Below are positions 46,681 to 56,557 of a stretch of 64,000 nt of DNA, one piece after another (the first letter of the stretch is position 1; each line of letters begins with the position of its first letter). The DNA is from Streptomyces sp. NBC_00464 (lineage in GTDB: Bacteria; Actinomycetota; Actinomycetes; Streptomycetales; Streptomycetaceae). Position numbers and translations under genes: made by a program. The stretch covers positions 186,001-250,000 of the forward strand of contig NZ_CP107899.1 of NCBI RefSeq assembly GCF_036013915.1. Direction: 5' to 3'. The notes under the pieces are model-generated. The model was given only the letters and a program-made list of their open reading frames with translations, was not told where the DNA came from and ran no database searches.

Positions 46681-46725
46681 CGCGCGTCCTGCCCCCGCGT
46701 GTCCTACCCTCGCGCGTCCTGCCTG
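46681..46725. repeat. Three 15-bp near-copies spanning the GMC gene stop
   Basis: CGCGCGTCCTGCCCC, CGCGTGTCCTACCCT and CGCGCGTCCTGCCTG lie head to tail at 46681, 46696 and 46711. The middle copy's single-base change creates the TAG stop (46704-46706, minus strand) of the GMC oxidoreductase. Confidence 0.75.
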
Positions 46726-48281
46726 ATCAGCTCCGCCGCCTTCTCTGCGATGGCGACCGTCGGGGCGTGGGTGTGGCCCCGGGTGATGCGCGGCATCACC
46801 GACGCGTCCACGACCCGCAGGCCCTGCACACCGCGCACCCGGAGCCGTGGATCGGTGACGGACGACGGGTCCTCGCCCATCCGGCAGGTGCCGACGGGAT
46901 GGTAGAGGGTCTGCGCACCGCTCCGGATCGCCTCCGCGAGCCGGTCGTCGTCGACCGGTCCCGGGTACGGGGCCATCGGCCCCGAGGTGTGCGGGGCCAG
47001 CGCGTCCGAGGCGAACAGGGTTTCGGCGCGGCGGACGCCGGCGATCAGCCGCGGCAGATCCGCGTCGGCGGTCAGATAGCCCGGGTCGATCCGGATTCCG
47101 GAGCCGGCGTTGTCCGGGTCCAGCGTGATCCGTCCTGTGCTCTCGGGCTGGAGCAGGACCACACCGATCGTGAGTCCGTGCTCGGTCGGCGGGGTGAGGC
47201 CGTGATCGATGAACGGGGCCGGCGCGAAGATCAGCTCGATGTCGGGTGCGGCAAGCCGGGGCGAGCTGCGGATGAAGGCGACGGCCTCGGCGAGGTTGGA
47301 GGTGAGCGGTCCGCGCCTGGCCAGCAGGAAGCGCGCCACGTTGGCCAGGCTGTCGGCACCGGTCAGAGTCACCGGTCGCGGACAGTGCACCGTCACGGCG
47401 AAGCTCAGATGGTCCTGGAGGTGGCGGCCGACGTCGGGGGACGCGGCGCGTACCTCGACGCCCGCCCGTCGCAGCTCGCCGGGGTCGCCGATGCCGGAGC
47501 TCATCAGCAGGTGCGGGGAGCCGATGGCTCCCGCGCTGAGGACGACCTCGTGGCGGGCGGTGAGCGTGCTGCCGCTTGCGGTGACCACTCCGACGGCCCG
47601 GGTTCCCTCGAAGGCGAGGGAGCTGACCCGGGTGCCGGTGACGATGTCCAGGTTGGCGCGGCGGGCGGCCGGTTTCAGATAGCCGTCGGCGGCGCTCCAG
47701 CGGCGGCCGCGGCGCTGGTTGACCGGGGTCACCGCCACCCCGCTGTGGTCGGGGGCGTTCAGCTCGGCGCGGAGCGGCAGGCCGTCGTCCAGGCAGGCGG
47801 TGATGAAGTCGCCGGTCAGGCCGGAGGGGGCGCGGGGCGGCGACACGAAGAGCGGACCCTGCGTGCCGTACACGGTGCCGTGGCCGGTCGGGCCGGTCCA
47901 CCGCTCGGCCCGCCGGAAGTACGGCACGATGGCGTCGTGGCCCCACTCCGGTCCGGCGGAACCGGCCCAGCCGTCGTAGTCGTCACGGTGGCCTCGTACC
48001 CACATCATGGCGTTGACCGAGGATGATCCGCCGAGTGTGTGGCCGCGCGGCCAGAACAGTTCGCGACCTCCGAGGGCCGGCTGCTTCACCGTGCTGAAGT
48101 CCCAGTCGTACGCCGTCTTGAAGAGCTTCGGGAACGCCGCCGGGATCCGGATCTCGGGCTTGCGGTCAGGCCCACCCGACTCGACGAGGGCGACCCGGAC
48201 CGTGGGGTCCTCGGACAGCCGTGCCGCCAGCACACAGCCGGCCGATCCCGCTCCGACGACGATGTAGTCGTACTCGCTCAA
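46704..48281 (-). CDS. GMC family FAD oxidoreductase (choline/alcohol dehydrogenase type)
   Basis: 525 residues. The N-terminal FAD loop is YIVVGAGSAGCVLAARLSED. The GMC signature 1 region is PRGHTLGGSSSVNAMMWVRGH and signature 2 is GAIGSPHLLMSSGIG. Close to the C-terminus are HPVGTCRMG (catalytic His) and the Asn/His-equivalent segment DASVMPRITRGHTHAPTVAIAEKAAELI. Substrates may be choline or other primary alcohols. The TTG start at 48281 has GAGGAG 8 bases upstream. A betaine-aldehyde dehydrogenase is not adjacent. A 15-bp triplication straddles its stop codon. Confidence 0.92.
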   Translation of the reverse strand: MSEYDYIVVGAGSAGCVLAARLSEDPTVRVALVESGGPDRKPEIRIPAAFPKLFKTAYDWDFSTVKQPALGGRELFWPRGHTLGGSSSVNAMMWVRGHRDDYDGWAGSAGPEWGHDAIVPYFRRAERWTGPTGHGTVYGTQGPLFVSPPRAPSGLTGDFITACLDDGLPLRAELNAPDHSGVAVTPVNQRRGRRWSAADGYLKPAARRANLDIVTGTRVSSLAFEGTRAVGVVTASGSTLTARHEVVLSAGAIGSPHLLMSSGIGDPGELRRAGVEVRAASPDVGRHLQDHLSFAVTVHCPRPVTLTGADSLANVARFLLARRGPLTSNLAEAVAFIRSSPRLAAPDIELIFAPAPFIDHGLTPPTEHGLTIGVVLLQPESTGRITLDPDNAGSGIRIDPGYLTADADLPRLIAGVRRAETLFASDALAPHTSGPMAPYPGPVDDDRLAEAIRSGAQTLYHPVGTCRMGEDPSSVTDPRLRVRGVQGLRVVDASVMPRITRGHTHAPTVAIAEKAAELIRQDARG

Positions 48282-48379
48282 CTCGGCTTCTCCTCGTGGT
48301 CGACGCGGGATCCGCAGCGTTCACGGAGACCCGCAGGCCGATGTACGGAAAGCCGAAGTGTCGCACGGTGGGGGCACGT

Positions 48380-48634
48380 TCACGCCTGGTCGCGGTCAAC
48401 TCTGCGGAGCCGGTCGCGCTCCTTCTCGGAGAGGCCGCCCCATACGCCGAAGCGCTCGTCGTTGTCGAGGGCGTACTCCAGGCAGGCCAGGCGGCCCTCG
48501 CAGGCGTTGCAGAGCTGCTTGGCCTCACGTGTGGAGCTGCCGGGGGCAGGGAAGAAGAACTCGGGCCCCGTCTGTGCGCACAGCGCTGTCTCCTGCCAGG
48601 CGAGAGCGGGGTCGATCGCGGTGTTGATCAGCAT
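48380..48634 (-). CDS. WhiB-like iron-sulfur transcription factor
   Basis: 84 residues with the four Cys ligands of the WhiB [4Fe-4S] cluster: Cys19 (ALCAQTG) and the C-x2-C-x5-C set in QLCNACEGRLACLEYAL. The Gly/Trp turn GVWGGLS and the basic tail EKERDRLRR, used for sigma-factor or DNA contact, follow. WhiB proteins act with the principal sigma factor in development and stress responses. It lies upstream of the GMC gene on the same strand with a 98-base gap, which weakly suggests linkage. By synteny I recall wblH-type genes near here, not verified. Confidence 0.93.
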   Translation of the reverse strand: MLINTAIDPALAWQETALCAQTGPEFFFPAPGSSTREAKQLCNACEGRLACLEYALDNDERFGVWGGLSEKERDRLRRVDRDQA

Positions 48635-48728
48635 GGGGCCACAGTGCCCTGCCGAGATAAACGACTGATCAACGATCCATCAACCGACCGGCCGGCCGCG
48701 CACGGCGATGCCGACGGCAGCCACACGA

Positions 48729-49529
48729 TCAGGCGGCGGGCGTCTCCGCGCTCCTGATCACGGCGAACGCGGCGCCGTACGGATCGGCGACGTTGGCGAA
48801 GGTGCCCACGCCCTCCATCTCCAGCGGTTCCAGCGTGAGCTTGCCGCCCAGCCGCTCGACCGCCGCCACCGTGGCATCGCAGTCGTCGACCTCGATGTAC
48901 GGCAGCCAGTGGGGCCCGGCGGCAGCCCGGACGGGCACGGCGTCCAGCGGGACGAGCCCGCCGAACGAGGCATCCTCGCCGCCGCCCGCCGTCCTGATGA
49001 CGGTGTACGCGCCGCCTCCGCCCGGATAGGGCATCTGGACGGTCTCCCAGCCGAAGACGGCGTCGTAGAACGCCGCCGCTGCCGGCACGTCCGGGGTGTA
49101 CAGCTCCGCCCAGCAGAGGCTGCCCCGTTCGTTCACGACGCCGAGTCCCGGATTCTGCTTCGGCTGCCAGACGCCGAAGTACGCCCCGGCCCGGTCGGTG
49201 AACCCGCCCATCCGGCCGTACTCCAGGACGTCCATCGGCGTGAACGGCACCGCCCCGCCGGACTTCTCCACGGCCTGTGCGGTCGCATCCACATCCGCCG
49301 CCCGGAAGTACACCGACCAGGACGGCTTCGCCTGTTCCTCGGTGACCGTCATCGCGCCACCGACCGTCTTCCCGTTCAGCATGAACATCCCGTAGCCACC
49401 GGTCTCGGGGCCGCCGGCCTCGTAGTCCCAGCCGAGGAGTGAGGTGTAGAAGGCCGTGGCGCCTTCGAGGTCCGGCGTGCCCAGGTCCATCCAGTTGGGG
49501 GCTCCGTCGACAAAACGGGTGGTGAGCAT
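48729..49529 (-). CDS. VOC family protein with two glyoxalase-like domains
   Basis: 266 residues: two copies of the vicinal-oxygen-chelate fold, about 5-125 (APNWMDLGTPDLEGATAFYTSLLGW) and 135-260 (GSLCWAELYTPDVPAAAAFYDAVFGW). It resembles the actinobacterial Cfp30B/27-kDa antigen type, which may lack enzymatic activity; metal ligands are not all obvious. AAGGAG lies 6 bases before the ATG at 49529, making this start secure against an upstream ATG at 49592. Single-gene unit. Confidence 0.88.
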   Translation of the reverse strand: MLTTRFVDGAPNWMDLGTPDLEGATAFYTSLLGWDYEAGGPETGGYGMFMLNGKTVGGAMTVTEEQAKPSWSVYFRAADVDATAQAVEKSGGAVPFTPMDVLEYGRMGGFTDRAGAYFGVWQPKQNPGLGVVNERGSLCWAELYTPDVPAAAAFYDAVFGWETVQMPYPGGGGAYTVIRTAGGGEDASFGGLVPLDAVPVRAAAGPHWLPYIEVDDCDATVAAVERLGGKLTLEPLEMEGVGTFANVADPYGAAFAVIRSAETPAA

Positions 49530-49650
49530 GGTGCGCTCCTTCGTGGTCCCGTTCTCGGACAGCAGGAATTCCTGACTCTCCGAGTCTTGCACCGGGCACT
49601 GACAACCGCAGTCCGTACCGCTCGCCGAACGAAGCCGCCCGCAGTCCGTG

Positions 49651-49689: not shown

Positions 49690-50763
49690 TCAGCGTGCGA
49701 CGCCCAGTGCCGGCAGCACCGTCTCGGCCACCCGGTACGCCTCCTCCAGGAGTGGGTTGCCGGAGAGGATGAAGGTGTCGACGCCCAGGTCCTCGAACTC
49801 CTTGAGCCGTTCGACGACCTGCGCGGTCGAGCCCACCACCGCGGTGCCGGGCCCCGGCCGGAACAGGCTCATGCCCGGCCACATGTTGGGGTGGACCTCC
49901 AGCTCACGGGCGTGCGCGGGGACCTTGCCGCCGTGCTGGCGGAACTGTCGCTGCCAGCCCACACCGTCCTCGCCCGACCGGTCGCCGAGCTGACGGGCGT
50001 AGGTCGCGTCGCTGGTGACGTCGAGCAGCCGGTCGGCGGCGGCCCAGGCCTCTTCCTCCGTGTCCCGGACGATCAGATGCAGCCGCAGTCCGATTCTGAG
50101 CGTGCGACCGTACGCGGCGGCCCTCGCCCGGACCTTCTCCAGCTTCTCCTTCAGCAGATGCGGCGGCTCCCCCCAGGTCAGGAAGACGTCGACGTGCTCG
50201 GCCGCCATCTCGATGCCGGGGTCGGACGAGCCACCGAACCAGAGCGGGATGTGTCCGTCCTGGACCGGCTTCAGTTCCCGGAAGGAGGCTCCGGCGTTCT
50301 TCAGGTCGTAGAAGCGGCCCTTGTGGTCGAAGACCTCGCCGGCCGTCAGCCGCTTCACGATCGACCAGTACTCCGCGCTCAGCTCGTACCGTTCGTCGTG
50401 CTCCACGTGGAGTCCGTACTCCTGGAGCGACTTCGTCGAGCCGTTGACCACGTTGAAGCGCAGCCGCCCCCCGAAGAGCGTGTCGAAGCTGAGCGCCATC
50501 TTGGCGAGCAGCGTCGGCGCGATGAGCCCCGGGTGGACGGCGAGCAGGGGCTTGAACCGGGTGCTGGTCGAGGCGGCCAGCGCACTGCCGAGCGGCCAGA
50601 CGTCGTACAGGTCGGTGGCGAGGAGCGCGCCGCTGTATCCGAGCCGCTCGACCGTTCCGGCCAGCTGTGCCAGGTATCCGAGATCGACGGGGCGCCTGCC
50701 TTCGGGCTCCCACGGGTAGGCGCCTTCGCGCGGAATGATGTACCAGAGGACTTCGGTCGCCAT
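49690..50763 (-). CDS. LLM-class FMN-dependent sulfonate monooxygenase (SsuD-like)
   Basis: 357 residues. The bacterial-luciferase-like barrel closely follows SsuD: WYIIPREGAYPWEPEGRRPVDLGYL at the start, GGRLRFNVVNGSTKSLQEYG, IPLWFGGSSDPGIEMAAEHVDVFLTWGEPPHLLKEKLEKV and the end ILSGNPLLEEAYRVAETVLPAL. It should cleave a C-S bond of an alkane- or arylsulfonate with reduced FMN and O2 to release sulfite. It is the last of six genes. A flavin reductase (SsuE-like) is not encoded here, so one must come from elsewhere. The substrate range is uncertain because the operon also carries a desulfinase. Confidence 0.9.
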   Translation of the reverse strand: MATEVLWYIIPREGAYPWEPEGRRPVDLGYLAQLAGTVERLGYSGALLATDLYDVWPLGSALAASTSTRFKPLLAVHPGLIAPTLLAKMALSFDTLFGGRLRFNVVNGSTKSLQEYGLHVEHDERYELSAEYWSIVKRLTAGEVFDHKGRFYDLKNAGASFRELKPVQDGHIPLWFGGSSDPGIEMAAEHVDVFLTWGEPPHLLKEKLEKVRARAAAYGRTLRIGLRLHLIVRDTEEEAWAAADRLLDVTSDATYARQLGDRSGEDGVGWQRQFRQHGGKVPAHARELEVHPNMWPGMSLFRPGPGTAVVGSTAQVVERLKEFEDLGVDTFILSGNPLLEEAYRVAETVLPALGVAR

Positions 50764-50767
50764 GTCG

Positions 50768-51655
50768 TCATACCGCCTTGTCGGCTGCCGTACGGGCACG
50801 GGCATGGGCGACGGTGACCGGGCGGTCGATGAATCCGGTGCGGTGGAAGATGTCGGCCGCTTCCTGCTGCTCGGCGATGAACGGTTCGGTGACGGGCTCG
50901 ATCGTCCAGGGCAGCGAGGCGAGCGCGGTCTCCCAGTCGTCGGCCGATCCGCCGAGGTCCGCCGCGGCGATCTCGGCCACCTGCCGGGGGTGAGCCGCGG
51001 CCCACTCGTCGGCGCGCTTCAGCGCCCGGGTCAGTGCCTCGACCACCTCGGGCCGGGATTCGGCGAGGTCGCGGCGGGTGAAGAAGACGGAACGGTCGCT
51101 GATGACGTCGCCGGTACGGACGAGGGTCCGCAGTCCGCCGGTGCGCCGTGCGGCGGCGAGCTCGGCGCCCTGGGCGACCCAGGCGGCGATCTCGCCGGTG
51201 CGCAGCAGCTGCTCGCTGTCGGCGTTGCTGCGGACGGCGGTGATGTCTTCGGCGTACGACAGCCCGGCGTCGTCGAGGGCCTTGGCGATCAGGTGGGTCT
51301 GCCAGGAGCCGATGGCCAGGTGGACGGTCGAGCCCTTGAGGTCGGCGACGGACCGCACGGGGCTGTCCTCGGGGACGAGGAGCGCGCCGTGTTCGGGGCG
51401 GGGGGCGGAGACGGCCGTGTAGACGATGTCGTGCCCGGTGGCCTGCGCGGTGACCGGCGGGGTGGAGCCGGTGCCGCCGAAGTCGATCACGCCCCGGGTG
51501 AGGAGCTCTCCGGTGCGTACACCGTTGGTGTACGGGTGGAAGACGACGCTCTCGCCCAGCGGGGCCAGTTCCTCCTGGGCGAAGCCGAGGCGGGAGAGGT
51601 GGTACAGGTGGTAGAGGGACGGATTGCTGCTGTGGACACCGATGGTGAGGGTCAT
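50768..51655 (-). CDS. SsuA-like substrate-binding-fold protein lacking a signal peptide
   Basis: 295 residues. TLTIGVHSSNPSLYHLYHL, FGGTGSTPPVTAQATGHDIVYTA and LVPEDSPVRSVADLKGSTVHLAIGS match aliphatic-sulfonate binding proteins (SsuA), whose equivalent segment is FGGTGDTPP. The protein begins at the mature-like first strand, with no signal sequence or lipobox. It should therefore remain in the cytoplasm or be exported with a partner. The DszB-type catalytic Cys is also absent. The start abuts the ATPase stop, and the monooxygenase start is 4 bases from its own stop. It might be a cytoplasmic substrate carrier or an enzyme. Confidence 0.8.
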   Translation of the reverse strand: MTLTIGVHSSNPSLYHLYHLSRLGFAQEELAPLGESVVFHPYTNGVRTGELLTRGVIDFGGTGSTPPVTAQATGHDIVYTAVSAPRPEHGALLVPEDSPVRSVADLKGSTVHLAIGSWQTHLIAKALDDAGLSYAEDITAVRSNADSEQLLRTGEIAAWVAQGAELAAARRTGGLRTLVRTGDVISDRSVFFTRRDLAESRPEVVEALTRALKRADEWAAAHPRQVAEIAAADLGGSADDWETALASLPWTIEPVTEPFIAEQQEAADIFHRTGFIDRPVTVAHARARTAADKAV

Positions 51656-52411
51656 TCAGATCACTCCGGCTTCGGTACGGACGGGGGAAGGGACAGAAGG
51701 TGCGGGGGCCTCGACGCCGAGGTCGGCGAGGAGGCGTCGGCGCAGGGCCGCGAAGGCCGGGTCGCCGGGGTCGCGCGGCCGTCCGACCTCGACGGTCTCG
51801 TCGGTGACGAGCCGGCCGTCACGCAGGACCGCGACCCGGTCGGCGAGCCGTACGGCCTCGTCGACGTCGTGGGTGACCAGCAGTACGGCGGGCCGGTGCC
51901 TGCGGCACAGCTCGCCGACCAGGTCCTGCATCTTCAGCCGGGTCAGGGCGTCGAGTGCGGCGAACGGCTCGTCGAGCAGAAGGAGTTCGGGTTCACGGAC
52001 CAGGGCGCGGGCGAGTGCGACGCGCTGGGCCTCACCGCCGGAGAGGGTGGCGGGCCAGGCCTCGGCATGGCCGTCCAGACCTACTTCGGCCAGGGCCCGC
52101 AGCCCGTGCGCGGAGCGGCTGCGCGGCAGCGCGACCGTGACGTTGGCAAGAACCTTCTTCGACGGGACGAGCCGGGGTTCCTGGAAGACGATGGTGCGAG
52201 CCTCGGGGACGAGCACCTCTCCCCCATCGGCGCCGTCCAGGGCTCCGAGGATGCGCAGCAGCGTCGTCTTCCCACTGCCGCTGGCCCCGAGCAGGGCTAC
52301 GAACTCGCCTCGGGCGATGTCCAGTTGCAGGTCGTCAAGGACGGCACGGTCCCCGAAGACGCGGCGCAGCCCTCGCACCCGTACGGCGGGAGCGGATCTC
52401 GTCGCGGTCAT
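51656..52411 (-). CDS. ABC transporter ATPase (SsuB/TauB-like)
   Basis: 251 residues. Walker A GASGSGKTTLL at about 41-51, signature LSGGEAQRVALARALV, Walker B LLLLDEPFAALDAL, switch His in VTHDVDEAVRLAD. The Q-loop reads IVFQEPRLVPSKKVLANV, with the Q-E-x-R-L spacing typical of the nitrate/sulfonate/taurine group. The ATG overlaps the permease stop by four bases (ATGA). Energises uptake of the organosulfur substrate. Confidence 0.95.
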   Translation of the reverse strand: MTATRSAPAVRVRGLRRVFGDRAVLDDLQLDIARGEFVALLGASGSGKTTLLRILGALDGADGGEVLVPEARTIVFQEPRLVPSKKVLANVTVALPRSRSAHGLRALAEVGLDGHAEAWPATLSGGEAQRVALARALVREPELLLLDEPFAALDALTRLKMQDLVGELCRRHRPAVLLVTHDVDEAVRLADRVAVLRDGRLVTDETVEVGRPRDPGDPAFAALRRRLLADLGVEAPAPSVPSPVRTEAGVI

Positions 52412-53292
52412 CGGGTGACTCCCTGCGGGGTGCGCCACGGCATCAGCAGGCGTTCCAGCAGCCGCACGAGGATGTCGGCGGCCAGCCCGAGGAGCCCGTA
52501 GACGAGGATGCAGACGGCGAGGATGTCGGTGCGGGCGTAGCTCTGCGCCTGGGACATCAGATAGCCGATGCCGGCAGTGGCGTTGATCTCCTCGGCGGCG
52601 ATCAGCGCGATGACGCTGAGCGTCATGGACAGACGCAGTCCGGCGAGCAGGGACGGCAGGGCGCCGGGCAGGACGACTTCGCGTACGAGGGCCAGGCGTC
52701 CCATGCCGAAGCTCCGCATGGCCTCGATGAGTTTCGGGTCGGTGTTGCGGACTCCGCTCGATGTCGACACGTACATCGGGAAGGTGGTCGCGACGGCGAT
52801 GAGGAGGATCTTCGCCGTCTCGTTGATCCCGAACCAGACCATGAACAGCGGTACCAGCGAGAGGAAGGGAATGGTGCGCAGGGTCTGGAGCGAGGAGTCG
52901 AGGAGCTCGTCGCCGAGGCGGGTGAATCCGGTGGTGATGCCGAGGGTGAGTCCGGCGGCGAGTCCGATCAGGAGGCCGAGTCCGGAGCGGGTGAGGGAGG
53001 TGGTGAGGGCGTCGGGCAGCTGCCCGTTGCCCCACAACTCACCTACGGCCCTGACTACTTCGCCCGGAGAGGCCAGGACGTCGGGTGTGAGGATTCCGGT
53101 GGCGGATGCCACCCACCACAGGGCGAGGAGCAGAGCCGGGCCGATGGTGCGGACGACGAGCGCGTAGCTCCGGCTCCGGGCCCGGCGGAGCTGGGGGCGC
53201 GGTCGGACGAGTCCGGTGGGCGGGGTCGTGGCGTCGCTGGACTCGGGCGTCCGCCGGACGAGCCCGGGGGACGCTGCGGCGGTGTCGCTCAT
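52408..53292 (-). CDS. ABC transporter permease (SsuC/TauC-like)
   Basis: 294 residues. A Pro/Arg-rich cytoplasmic N-terminal extension of about 50 residues precedes six membrane helices. The EAA-loop reads DPKLIEAMRSFGMGRLALVREVVLPGALPSLLAGLRLS, the coupling helix that binds the ATPase, typical of sulfonate/nitrate permeases. The ATG overlaps the upstream lipoprotein stop by four bases. It probably acts as a homodimer. Confidence 0.95.
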   Translation of the reverse strand: MSDTAAASPGLVRRTPESSDATTPPTGLVRPRPQLRRARSRSYALVVRTIGPALLLALWWVASATGILTPDVLASPGEVVRAVGELWGNGQLPDALTTSLTRSGLGLLIGLAAGLTLGITTGFTRLGDELLDSSLQTLRTIPFLSLVPLFMVWFGINETAKILLIAVATTFPMYVSTSSGVRNTDPKLIEAMRSFGMGRLALVREVVLPGALPSLLAGLRLSMTLSVIALIAAEEINATAGIGYLMSQAQSYARTDILAVCILVYGLLGLAADILVRLLERLLMPWRTPQGVTR

Positions 53293-54305
53293 GTCAGCTT
53301 CCCGACGTCGAGCAGGTGGGCGGCGACATCGACCCGGGTCCTGGTGACCTTCTGCTCGGCATAGAACGCGGCGACGGCCTTGAAGCGCTCGATGTCCTCG
53401 GGGCCGATCGGGTCGACGGTGCCGCCCTCTGCCGTGAACTCCGTCTGGACCTCCTTGGCCTTCCCGGTCACGGCGGTCGGGCCGACGTCCGTGAAGACGT
53501 TGAGGTAGGCGGCCGGGTTCTGCTTCTCCCTGGCGCTGGTCTCGTGGAGGTACTGGTAGAGGGCCTTCACCACCTTCGGGTGCTGCTCGGCGAACTCTGT
53601 CCGTACGGCGTTGAGGCTGTAGTTGTCGGAGCCGATGGCCGCGCCGTCGGCGACGAAGTGCGCCTTGCCGCTGCCGATCTCCGCGACGGCGTAGGTGGCC
53701 CAGACGGCCCAGGCGTCGACCTTGCCGGCGTTGAAGACCGCTGCGGTCTGGTCGGGCCGCAGATAGACCCGGGTGACCCTGTCCGCCGGGATACCCGCCT
53801 TGGCGAGGGCCTTGAGCAGCAGGTACTCGCCGGTGCCGCCCTGGTTGACGGCGACCTTCTTCCCGACCAGATCGGCCACCGATCCGATGCCCGAGCCGTT
53901 CCTGACGAGGATGCCCTCGCCCGCGGCGTCCGGGTCGACGGCGGTGAAGAACTTGAAGCCGGGCCGCTGGGCGAGTGAGGTGATGCCCGAGGTGATGGAT
54001 CCCGTGGCGATGTCCAGCTGGTCCGCGTTCATCGCCTGGGCGGCGGGGGCGAACGGGCCGGCGCTGCCGGTCCACTCCACCTTGGCGCCCGCCTTGGACA
54101 GGGCCTTATCGAGGCTGCCGTCCTTCTTGCCGAGGGCGAGCACCCCGGAGTTGCCGGGGTCCGGAATGCGGACGGTCACCGTGGCCTTCGAGCCCCCTGC
54201 GGCGCTGTCGGCCTCGGACGTGCCGCAGGCGGTGAGGGCGACGAGCGCGGAGACCGTGAGGAGCGCCGGAAGGGCTGTCGTACGCAGTGGCCGGGAGAGA
54301 TTCAC
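53289..54305 (-). CDS. ABC transporter substrate-binding lipoprotein (sulfonate/nitrate/taurine type)
   Basis: 338 residues. The N-terminus MNLSRPLRTTALPALLTV leads to the lipobox LTACG (Cys27), so the protein is anchored outside the membrane. Mature part: VTVRIPDPGNSGVLALGKKDG, DIATGSITSGITSLAQRPG, VNQGGTGEYLLLKALAKAGI and WAVWATYAVAE, typical of SsuA/TauA-like binding proteins. The GTG start overlaps the desulfinase stop (GTGA) and is preceded by GAGGA about 9 bases away. It provides the external specificity of the importer. Confidence 0.92.
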   Translation of the reverse strand: MNLSRPLRTTALPALLTVSALVALTACGTSEADSAAGGSKATVTVRIPDPGNSGVLALGKKDGSLDKALSKAGAKVEWTGSAGPFAPAAQAMNADQLDIATGSITSGITSLAQRPGFKFFTAVDPDAAGEGILVRNGSGIGSVADLVGKKVAVNQGGTGEYLLLKALAKAGIPADRVTRVYLRPDQTAAVFNAGKVDAWAVWATYAVAEIGSGKAHFVADGAAIGSDNYSLNAVRTEFAEQHPKVVKALYQYLHETSAREKQNPAAYLNVFTDVGPTAVTGKAKEVQTEFTAEGGTVDPIGPEDIERFKAVAAFYAEQKVTRTRVDVAAHLLDVGKLT

Positions 54306-55330
54306 GATGCGGGTTCCTCTGGGATCGGGCGGGCGGAGGGTCGGCGGGCCAGTGCGGCTGCGCGGCGCAGCGGCCCGGGGTCGGCCCAGGCCGCGATGTC
54401 GACGGGCTCGGGCAGGAAGCCGTGGGCGCGCAGCCCGGCCTCCTGTGCAGCGAGCAGACCGAGGCGTTCGGCGGACAGGTCGGGGTGGAGGGTCAGGTGG
54501 GTGCCGGGCCGGTAGGCGCCGGCGACTCCGTCGGCGCCCGCTCCGGTCTCGGCGCCGAGGATGCGGGCGACCTCGTCGGGATGTCCGGCGGCCCAGTCGG
54601 CTGCCCTCAGCAGGACGGCGAGGAAGCGGTCGACGAGGCCGGGGTGGTCGTCGAGGAGCTGCTGGTGGACGGTGATCGGGCGCGGGGTGCCGTTGTTGAC
54701 GCGGAACCGGCGGTCGGGCAGGTCGTCGAGTTCGACGGCCACCTCGGCACCGGCGCGGCGGGCGGCTTCGACGGCCAGCGCACCCTTCACATACACGGCG
54801 TCGACGTCGCCGCGCCGCAGCGCGGCCAGTTCGGCCGCCCACTGGCCCTCGTGCCCGTCGGCGGGTACGTCGACGAGCGAGGCGTCCTCCGGCGCGAGTC
54901 CGGCGGAGGCGAGTGCCCCCTCGAAGCCGCGCAGGGCCATGGCACGCCAGAAGTCGATGGCGATGTCGTGCTTGGGCACGGCGAGCCGCAGCCCGCGCAG
55001 TGCCTCTGCGCCCCGGATGCCGGATCCGGGTGCGACCAGGACGGTCTGCCGTTCCTCGATCCAGGTGAGGCCGATCAGCCGGGTGCGTTCCCCCCGCGAA
55101 CGGGCCCACAACGCGGGGACGTTGCCGCCCTCCCGGAAGAGGCCGGGCAGGGCGTGGGTGTAGTGCGCGCCGCGGTCGGCGTCCGGGGAGGCGTCCTGGA
55201 GGGAGCGTACGGAGATGCCGTCGGCGGCGAACTCGTCGGTGAGCCACTGCCGGTCGGCGGCGATGCCGGTGGCAGTGGGTACGGGACAGCGGGTGAACCA
55301 GAGGGTCCGGGGCAGGACGGCAGGCGTCAT
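54302..55330 (-). CDS. DszB-like sulfinate desulfinase
   Basis: 342 residues with a substrate-binding-protein fold and no signal peptide, matching 2'-hydroxybiphenyl-2-sulfinate desulfinase (DszB). TRCPVPTATGIAADRQWL aligns with the DszB motif around its catalytic Cys27 (here Cys15). HYTHALPGLFREGGNVP carries His56 and Arg66, ten residues apart as in DszB His60/Arg70. ERTRLIGLTWIEERQTVLV and GDVDAVYVKGALAVE match further blocks. It should hydrolyse an aryl or alkyl sulfinate to release sulfite. It is first of six coupled genes after the leader peptide. The native substrate is unknown; specificity may differ from DszB. Confidence 0.82.
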   Translation of the reverse strand: MTPAVLPRTLWFTRCPVPTATGIAADRQWLTDEFAADGISVRSLQDASPDADRGAHYTHALPGLFREGGNVPALWARSRGERTRLIGLTWIEERQTVLVAPGSGIRGAEALRGLRLAVPKHDIAIDFWRAMALRGFEGALASAGLAPEDASLVDVPADGHEGQWAAELAALRRGDVDAVYVKGALAVEAARRAGAEVAVELDDLPDRRFRVNNGTPRPITVHQQLLDDHPGLVDRFLAVLLRAADWAAGHPDEVARILGAETGAGADGVAGAYRPGTHLTLHPDLSAERLGLLAAQEAGLRAHGFLPEPVDIAAWADPGPLRRAAALARRPSARPIPEEPAS

Positions 55331-55368
55331 GGAGTCTTCCCGAGGATCGGCGAAGCAGGGGAGCCGGC

Positions 55369-55417
55369 GGGCACGGCACGTACGGCCCGGAACGGGGAAG
55401 TACGTGGGCAGGGGCCC
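55369..55417 (-). promoter_or_regulatory. Hairpin between leader peptide and desulfinase gene
   Basis: CACGTAC (55377-55383) pairs with GTACGTG (55400-55406) and outer GGGC/GCCC can extend it. It lies in the 142 bases separating the leader peptide stop from the first operon gene and could be an attenuator, but no T-tract follows. Confidence 0.35.
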
Positions 55418-55472
55418 GTGAGGCGTCGGAGGGACGCGTCAGGCGTGAAGAAGAGAAGAGCGTGCGGGGAGG

Positions 55473-55583
55473 TCAGCGACAGGCGGCGCTGGACACGCGG
55501 GCCAGGTCGATGTGACGGCGCAGCGTGAGGGCGAGCAGGACCGGAGCGGCGTGGGCGGGGGTCGCGATTCGGCGGCCGGCCAT
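55473..55583 (-). CDS. 36-residue leader peptide of the sulfur operon
   Basis: A short frame encodes MAGRRIATPAHAAPVLLAL followed by TLRRHIDLARVSSAACR. The ending RRHxDLxRVxSAxCR is, as I recall, the conserved tail of the short peptides annotated as putative leader peptides before sulfate, sulfonate and cysteine genes in actinobacteria. AAGGGAG lies 7 bases before the ATG, a strong ribosome site. Its penultimate codon is Cys (TGT). I infer that translation of this tail senses cysteine or its charged tRNA and controls the six-gene operon that starts 142 bases downstream. The peptide itself probably has no function. Confidence 0.8.
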   Translation of the reverse strand: MAGRRIATPAHAAPVLLALTLRRHIDLARVSSAACR

Positions 55584-55671: not shown

Positions 55672-55774
55672 TTACGTATGAACGGAGTGTTTCACCAGGC
55701 CGTTTCGGCCCGGCCCGACTCCCGCGATGTGGCAACGTCGGGCCCCGCATCCCCACGAGCGGAGAGTGAAACCC

Positions 55775-56557
55775 ATGACCGAGGCCGCCGCAGTACGCGC
55801 TCCCGGCGGGGCCCAGGCCGTCCAGCGCGCCCTGGACGTCCTGCACTGTTTCCACGACAACGGCCCCGATCTCAGCGCCTCCGACCTCGCCCGCCGCCTG
55901 ACGCTGTCGGCGTCCACGGCTCACCGGCTGGCCCGCACCCTGCTCGGCGCCGGATTCCTGGAGCAGGACGCCCGGACGTCCCGCTACCGGCTCGGCCCGG
56001 CCGTGACCGAACTCGGCAGACTCTCCTACCACCAGCGCGGTCTGCATCTGGCCGCGCCCGAACTGGCCGATCTCGCCGAACGCACGGGCGCCACCGCCGA
56101 CCTGGCGCTGCGCAGCGGACCGCATGCGGTGATCGTCGCGGGCGGTTCGGTGACCCCCAAGGTGGGGCTGCGGCGGCCGCTGCACTCCACCGCGCTGGGC
56201 AAGGTGCTGCTGGCCTGGGCGGGGCCCGGCGAGGGCGGACCCTCCTCGCTGCCGCCGCTGCCCGCCTTCACCGACCGGACCATCGTCGAACCGGCGGCCC
56301 TGGAGACGGAGCTGGCACGGGTGCGGTCCGACGCCTACGCCGTCAACGACGGCGAGTCGGCCCACGGGGTGCGGACCCTGGCGGTGCCGGTGCTGAACGG
56401 CGCCGGGCATGCCCGTTTCGCCCTCGCGGTACGGGCCACCCCGTCCGTGATCACCGAAGCGCGCACCGACTGGTTCCTGGCACAGGCACGCTCCTGCGCG
56501 CGCGCCCTGGAGGTACTTCTGCTGTCCCCTGCGGAGCGGCGGCCTCCCTCGGCCTGA
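55775..56557 (+). CDS. IclR family transcriptional regulator
   Basis: 260 residues. N-terminal winged helix (VQRALDVLHCFHDNGPDLSASDLARRLTLSASTAHRLARTLLGAGFLEQD) and C-terminal GAF-like effector domain (LHSTALGKVLLAW, VRSDAYAVNDGESAHGVRTLAVPVLN), as in IclR proteins. It is divergent from the sulfur operon and likely controls it and itself. ATG 55775 is chosen with GGAGAG about 10 bases before it. A longer reading from 55727 is less likely since it starts within the promoter region. Confidence 0.9.
   Translation: MTEAAAVRAPGGAQAVQRALDVLHCFHDNGPDLSASDLARRLTLSASTAHRLARTLLGAGFLEQDARTSRYRLGPAVTELGRLSYHQRGLHLAAPELADLAERTGATADLALRSGPHAVIVAGGSVTPKVGLRRPLHSTALGKVLLAWAGPGEGGPSSLPPLPAFTDRTIVEPAALETELARVRSDAYAVNDGESAHGVRTLAVPVLNGAGHARFALAVRATPSVITEARTDWFLAQARSCARALEVLLLSPAERRPPSA

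Follow-up and report, generated by a model that had tools for sequence, protein, structure and literature searches.

Gene content of the operon

We analyzed a window of 64,000 nucleotides from Streptomyces sp. NBC_00464 (contig NZ_CP107899.1, positions 186,001 to 250,000) that contains an operon of six genes, here called g1 to g6, in which a DszB-like sulfinate desulfinase is encoded together with an Ssu-type importer and one monooxygenase dependent on reduced flavin mononucleotide (FMNH2). Products were assigned by Pfam and NCBIfam profile searches. All six reading frames named in a first-pass annotation of the window are present; the end coordinate of the operon in that annotation, 55583, is the start of a leader-peptide open reading frame (ORF) that it did not name. 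Positions refer to the window, and lengths are in amino acids (aa).

54302..55330, reverse strand: g1, DszB-like sulfinate desulfinase, 342 aa; Cys15 is the single Cys, and no signal peptide was seen
53289..54305, reverse strand: g2, SsuA-like substrate-binding lipoprotein, 338 aa, GTG start; TIGR01728, 147.9 bits (cut-off 163.5)
52408..53292, reverse strand: g3, SsuC-like permease, 294 aa; PF00528, and NF008470 (SsuC), 215.8 bits (cut-off 347)
51656..52411, reverse strand: g4, SsuB-like ATPase, 251 aa; PF00005, and NF008420, 229.6 bits (cut-off 395)
50768..51655, reverse strand: g5, SsuA-like protein, 295 aa, without signal peptide and without Cys
49690..50763, reverse strand: g6, luciferase-like monooxygenase dependent on FMNH2 (SsuD superfamily, sulfonate site altered), 357 aa; TIGR03565 and residue table
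55473..55583, reverse strand: leader-peptide ORF, 36 aa, C-terminal LRRHIDLARVSSAACR; NCBIfam NF042934 (cis_reg_atten)
55727..56557, forward strand: IclR-type regulator, divergent from the operon and conserved with it; PF01614, PF09339

The junctions from g1/g2 to g5/g6 measure -4, -4, -4, 0, and +4 bases. The longest frame for g6 begins at 50805, yet the ATG at 50763 matches the starts of its homologs. The lipoprotein g2 carries the lipobox LTAC in its sequence and is related to solved SsuA/TauA structures. Ssu families are the best resemblance for g2, g3, and g4, in agreement with the importer type first proposed, although g2 to g6 all score below the curated cut-offs of their best Ssu families. 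The second SsuA-like protein, g5, lacks a signal peptide and is therefore not obviously part of the importer. No flavin reductase was found among the six operon genes and the three neighbors tested, as the first-pass annotation had noted for the operon; eight genes elsewhere in the genome match PF01613.

The g1 protein has the catalytic triad of DszB

The g1 protein was assigned an NMT1-type fold. In a phmmer alignment to the DszB structure 2de2, Cys15, His56, and Arg66 of g1 align with C27, H60, and R70 of DszB, whose roles are described in PMC12168087 (here and below, PMC numbers stand for the parts of each paper that were consulted), and the DszB-like active site proposed from the sequence is thereby supported. 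The two proteins share the fold, the triad, and a glycine pair behind the Arg, whereas their identity in structure alignments is only 26-29%. An alignment of 43 rows, out of 70 g1-like frames listed, retains Arg66 throughout and the full triad in 37 rows, the other six being distant paralogs.

An alternative is that g1 serves as a binding protein inside the cell, or catalyzes another reaction on the same fold, rather than acting as a desulfinase. Nearly all named proteins among 120 listed g1 relatives are annotated as substrate-binding proteins, mostly of ATP-binding cassette (ABC) transporters, and structure-comparison rows place Thi5, MqnD, and 4,5-dihydroxyphthalate decarboxylase on this fold. 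However, g1 has just one Cys, all 18 rows of the actinobacterial g1 type preserve the triad, and DszB is the best structural fit by 4.4 to 5.6 Z units. We therefore consider a non-desulfinase function of g1 unlikely, and the annotations of its relatives suggest instead that the desulfinase family is largely hidden in public annotation. DszB-like paralogs with Ser for the catalytic Cys, or with another sequence in place of the motif, lie near intact copies at six loci (L044, L047, L055, L040, L043, and L050) and are possible non-desulfinase members of the family.

The g6 monooxygenase has an altered sulfonate site

The last gene of the operon had been annotated as an SsuD-like FMN monooxygenase. 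Its superfamily placement holds, but the sulfonate-binding loop and C-terminal tail set g6 apart from a plain SsuD. It is the only strong SsuD-like gene in the genome (342 bits, next match 66), and its TIGR03565 (SsuD) score of 342.7 bits is under the cut-off of 518.2. In MsuD, the sulfonate is held by W195, R225, and R296, whose side chains are essential for this, and by one backbone NH of an RGGA loop, and Tyr330 and the C-terminal tail lie close to this site; truncation of the tail lowers activity about twelve-fold (PMC8234197). In MsuD numbering, g6 retains W195, R225, and R296 together with His227. The RGGA/S loop is replaced by RPGP, which puts at position 299 a Pro without the backbone NH that touches the sulfonate in MsuD. 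Further substitutions are Asn for Tyr330, Leu for Cys54, and Pro at the His10 position. The protein ends 4 residues past the aligned end of MsuD and thus lacks the active-site tail.

The changes in the loop, at position 330, and at the C terminus are conserved. We aligned 38 ortholog rows with at least 60% identity to g6, two of them halves of one frame-shifted gene. The loop FRPGPGTA and the Asn at 330 occur in 37 rows, and the sole row without the RPGP loop is the first half of the frame-shifted gene (L001). At most 13 residues follow the aligned MsuD end in 36 rows, and 21 in the other two. The operon shares with SsuD/MsuD systems the enzyme superfamily, three sulfonate-binding side chains, and an SsuABC-type importer alongside, and it differs from SsuD plus SsuABC systems in its lack of an adjacent SsuE-like reductase, its added desulfinase, and its second, leaderless SsuA.

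The residues of g6 bear on the main rival to the two-step route proposed below, namely that the importer takes up sulfonates as well as sulfinates and serves two enzymes working in parallel, without a common intermediate: like SsuD, g6 would free sulfite from the sulfonates, and g1 would free it from the sulfinates. Ssu importers transport sulfonates, so the known cargo fits such a scheme, as do the retained W195, R225, R296, and His227 and the lack of another strong SsuD-like gene in the genome. The RPGP loop with Pro299, the Asn in place of Tyr330, and the absence of a tail whose truncation is costly in MsuD all argue the other way. The altered site favors the two-step route and the retained Trp and Arg residues favor parallel action, which we regard as a possible explanation with the odds against it.

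g1 and g6 occur together across Streptomyces

The complete set of six genes stands in the same order in 37 of 41 related actinobacterial loci; of the other four, two are truncated at contig ends and two are variants. The IclR gene is divergent and adjoins g1 in 39 of the 41. We then surveyed 392 Streptomyces genomes, counting as g6 orthologs proteins of at least 84% identity, two fragments included. The g1 gene was found in 38 genomes (in G005 and G223 in pieces only) and g6 orthologs in 38, with both in 37, where the two always lie on the same strand, 3.5-4.2 kb apart. The hypergeometric probability of this overlap is 1e-49, uncorrected for phylogeny. The partnership is not due to chance, and the co-occurrence of desulfinase and monooxygenase across Streptomyces, a point raised by the first-pass annotation, is supported.

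The same survey argues against parallel enzymes. Only a distant g6 relative (at most 49% identity among the matches listed) is present in 206 of the 392 genomes, and a g1 match was found in just one of these, G053 (53%); the g6 type occurs without g1 only once, as a fragment. In Streptomyces gelaticus (L059:9001-9319), pieces of g1 and g6 directly adjoin each other, the arrangement that loss of the genes between them would leave.

A sulfur-associated leader peptide precedes the operon

The leader ORF scores 29.0 bits against the NF042934 cut-off of 27 and lies 142 bases upstream of g1. In the 700 bases preceding g1, 29 of 40 related actinobacterial loci show its motif, against none of four Rhodococcus-type loci, which were searched upstream of the first importer gene. 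Genome-wide, there are nine NF042934-type matches of at least 21.5 bits. The six above the cut-off sit before genes for cysteine synthase, a sulfatase, cysteine dioxygenase, a nitrite/sulfite reductase-family protein, a rhodanese, and g1; the three weaker ones precede a flavin reductase, a dicarboxylate-type symporter, and a second sulfur cluster. With the six operon proteins pooled, Cys and Met together account for 1.28% of residues; the corresponding mean for 34 other ORFs of the window is 3.02%, and the median 2.87%. The position of the leaders before sulfur genes and the low Cys and Met content place the operon in the sulfur-starvation response and indicate that it is probably induced when sulfur is scarce. 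Attenuation through the leader peptide and control by the IclR regulator would be the means.

One of the weaker leader matches lies immediately upstream of a flavin reductase gene (L102:1501-2119), a candidate source of FMNH2 for g6. The second sulfur cluster (L093:6531-13190, at about 846.5-853.2 kb of contig C1 of the same genome), also with a weak leader match upstream, encodes a flavin reductase, a binding protein, a permease, an ATPase, and an NtaA/DmoA-type monooxygenase, the permease and ATPase having been read by eye.

Relation to known desulfinase loci

To our knowledge, the dszABC operon, home of DszB, contains no importer gene. The first-pass annotation held that known Dsz operons lack a dedicated importer; for desulfinase operons at large, the gene lists in PMC3868597 and PMC8557817 do not support this. 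In Gordonia terrae C-6, the genes from GTC6_01585 to 01620 encode a binding protein (01585), a hypothetical protein (01590), two monooxygenases (01595 and 01600), a desulfinase (01605), an ATPase (01610), a permease (01615), and a second binding protein (01620). All are induced on benzothiophene, those with an assigned product strongly, although bdsABC comprises only the middle three (01595-01605); extracts containing these three convert benzothiophene to o-hydroxystyrene (PMC3868597). This bds locus, like the Streptomyces operon, unites a desulfinase, a monooxygenase, an Ssu-type ATPase and permease, and two binding proteins, but it has two monooxygenases and a hypothetical protein where the Streptomyces operon has one monooxygenase, and its desulfinase follows the importer genes rather than coming first. 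Reversed, the order of the bds tags is the gene order that we found in Rhodococcus, Nocardia, and Tsukamurella (L051-L054): binding protein, permease, ATPase, DszB-like protein, two monooxygenases, and a g5 relative. A 68% relative of the L051 protein occurs in Gordonia soli.

A chromosomal set in Rhodococcus qingshengii IGTS8 is also similar, as judged from table rows only: peg4799 SsuA, 4801 SsuB, 4802 SsuA/DszB, 4804 SsuD, and 4806 SsuA. These rows stand ahead of the heading 'Proteins downregulated in the dibenzothiophene culture' (PMC8557817) and are taken to be the up-regulated part of the table; the tags are not repeated in the consulted main text of that paper. In the consulted parts of PMC3868597 and PMC8557817, the transporter is not treated as belonging to the operon, the string "desulfin-" does not occur in those of PMC13352529, and a Gordonia strain without a DszB analog is described in PMC11852219. 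The general layout is thus already known from Rhodococcus and Gordonia, and since the union of desulfinase and importer is in print, the novelty claimed for it falls. The operon is a compact Streptomyces variant of the loci in these genera that combine an Ssu importer with a DszB-like desulfinase.

The likeness to the bds locus also raises the question of whether the operon imports and desulfurizes hydrophobic thiophenes by a 4S-like pathway. The gene set is of the bds kind, and in extracts the three bds enzymes yield o-hydroxystyrene from benzothiophene (PMC3868597). The operon nevertheless has one monooxygenase against two in bds, lacks a DszC-like gene, and so does not show the combination of DszA-type and DszC-type monooxygenases beside a desulfinase that marks a 4S/Dsz system. 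DszA is a member of the NtaA/DmoA family, and g6 scores 78.8 bits for that family (TIGR03860), far under the cut-off of 279.7. Thiophene desulfurization is accordingly very improbable.

A proposed two-step route from import to sulfite

The evidence supports the organosulfur-scavenging role first suggested for the operon, and we propose, with a probability of roughly 50%, a sulfur-starvation system in which the two enzymes act in sequence. The g2-g3-g4 importer would take up an anionic organosulfur compound. With FMNH2 from a reductase encoded elsewhere, g6 would oxygenate it and cut the first C-S bond to give a sulfinate, as DszA and SfnG do with sulfones, and g1 would hydrolyze the sulfinate through Cys15, positioned by His56 and Arg66, to release sulfite for cysteine synthesis. 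The leaderless g5, with its SsuA fold, may bind the substrate or the intermediate in the cytoplasm. Shortage of cysteine would raise expression through the leader peptide, with tuning by the divergent IclR regulator. Similar gene sets are induced on thiophenes relative to sulfate (PMC3868597, PMC8557817).

Several observations weigh against this proposal. Because W195, R225, and R296 are kept, g6 may cleave sulfonates straight to sulfite, which would make g1 superfluous for that substrate. Tyr330 is absent from 28 of 31 other luciferase-like rows of the fetched loci, so its loss alone says little. No DszC-like S-oxygenase or second monooxygenase was found in the operon by Pfam and NCBIfam searches. 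In all six rows from Pseudomonas and Acinetobacter, the g6-like enzyme that adjoins the g1 relative lacks both W195 and R296, so DszB-linked monooxygenases are not one uniform type. Our tree puts DszB outside all 43 g1-like rows, on a branch 3.3 long (support 83/85), and the substrate of g1 may therefore differ widely from that of DszB; many parts of the tree have weak support, and 19 of its 43 inner branches are starred. The likeness to BdsA of the bds locus and to IGTS8_peg4802 is one of gene lists rather than of compared sequences. Variant locus L026 lacks relatives of g2 and g5, and L034 (Nonomuraea) is intermediate, with g1 to g4, two other monooxygenases, and g5. The g1 relative of G053 occurs without a g6 ortholog, and the g6 fragment of G029 without g1. 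The strict motif search found no leader in 11 of the 40 loci. Finally, in an alignment of 28 g5 rows, with the start codons of relatives picked by script close to that of g5, 15 rows have a frame open further upstream; in the other 13, a stop codon lies too close upstream for a signal peptide to fit.

The substrate for which DszB is known comes from fossil fuel. A conserved operon with a DszB-like enzyme, one importer, one monooxygenase, and a sulfur-status leader is a small system in which the natural role of such desulfinases can be learned, and it includes the leaderless g5, whose role can be tested directly. More speculatively, g6 could represent a monooxygenase subfamily, characterized by the retained Trp and two Arg residues, the RPGP loop, Asn330, and the lack of a tail, that makes a sulfinate from an imported natural compound, leaving g1 and g5 (an intracellular carrier or a second enzyme) to finish the process inside the cell. 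If this rather unlikely idea is true, the operon would encode every step from import to sulfite for a natural sulfone or sulfinate not previously known as a bacterial sulfur source.

Neighboring and related loci

At L042:8704-17745 and at similar loci of Pseudomonas and Acinetobacter, a g1 relative and a g6-like monooxygenase occur with the Ssu importer replaced; in L042, the only one of these whose families were searched, their partners are a dipeptide-type (SBP_bac_5) binding protein and an aldolase-II-type protein. In the window, a glyoxalase-fold protein, matching KbpA below the cut-off, and a GMC oxidoreductase are encoded 3' of the operon at 46704-49592, and this pair also follows the operon in some of its relatives, though not in all.

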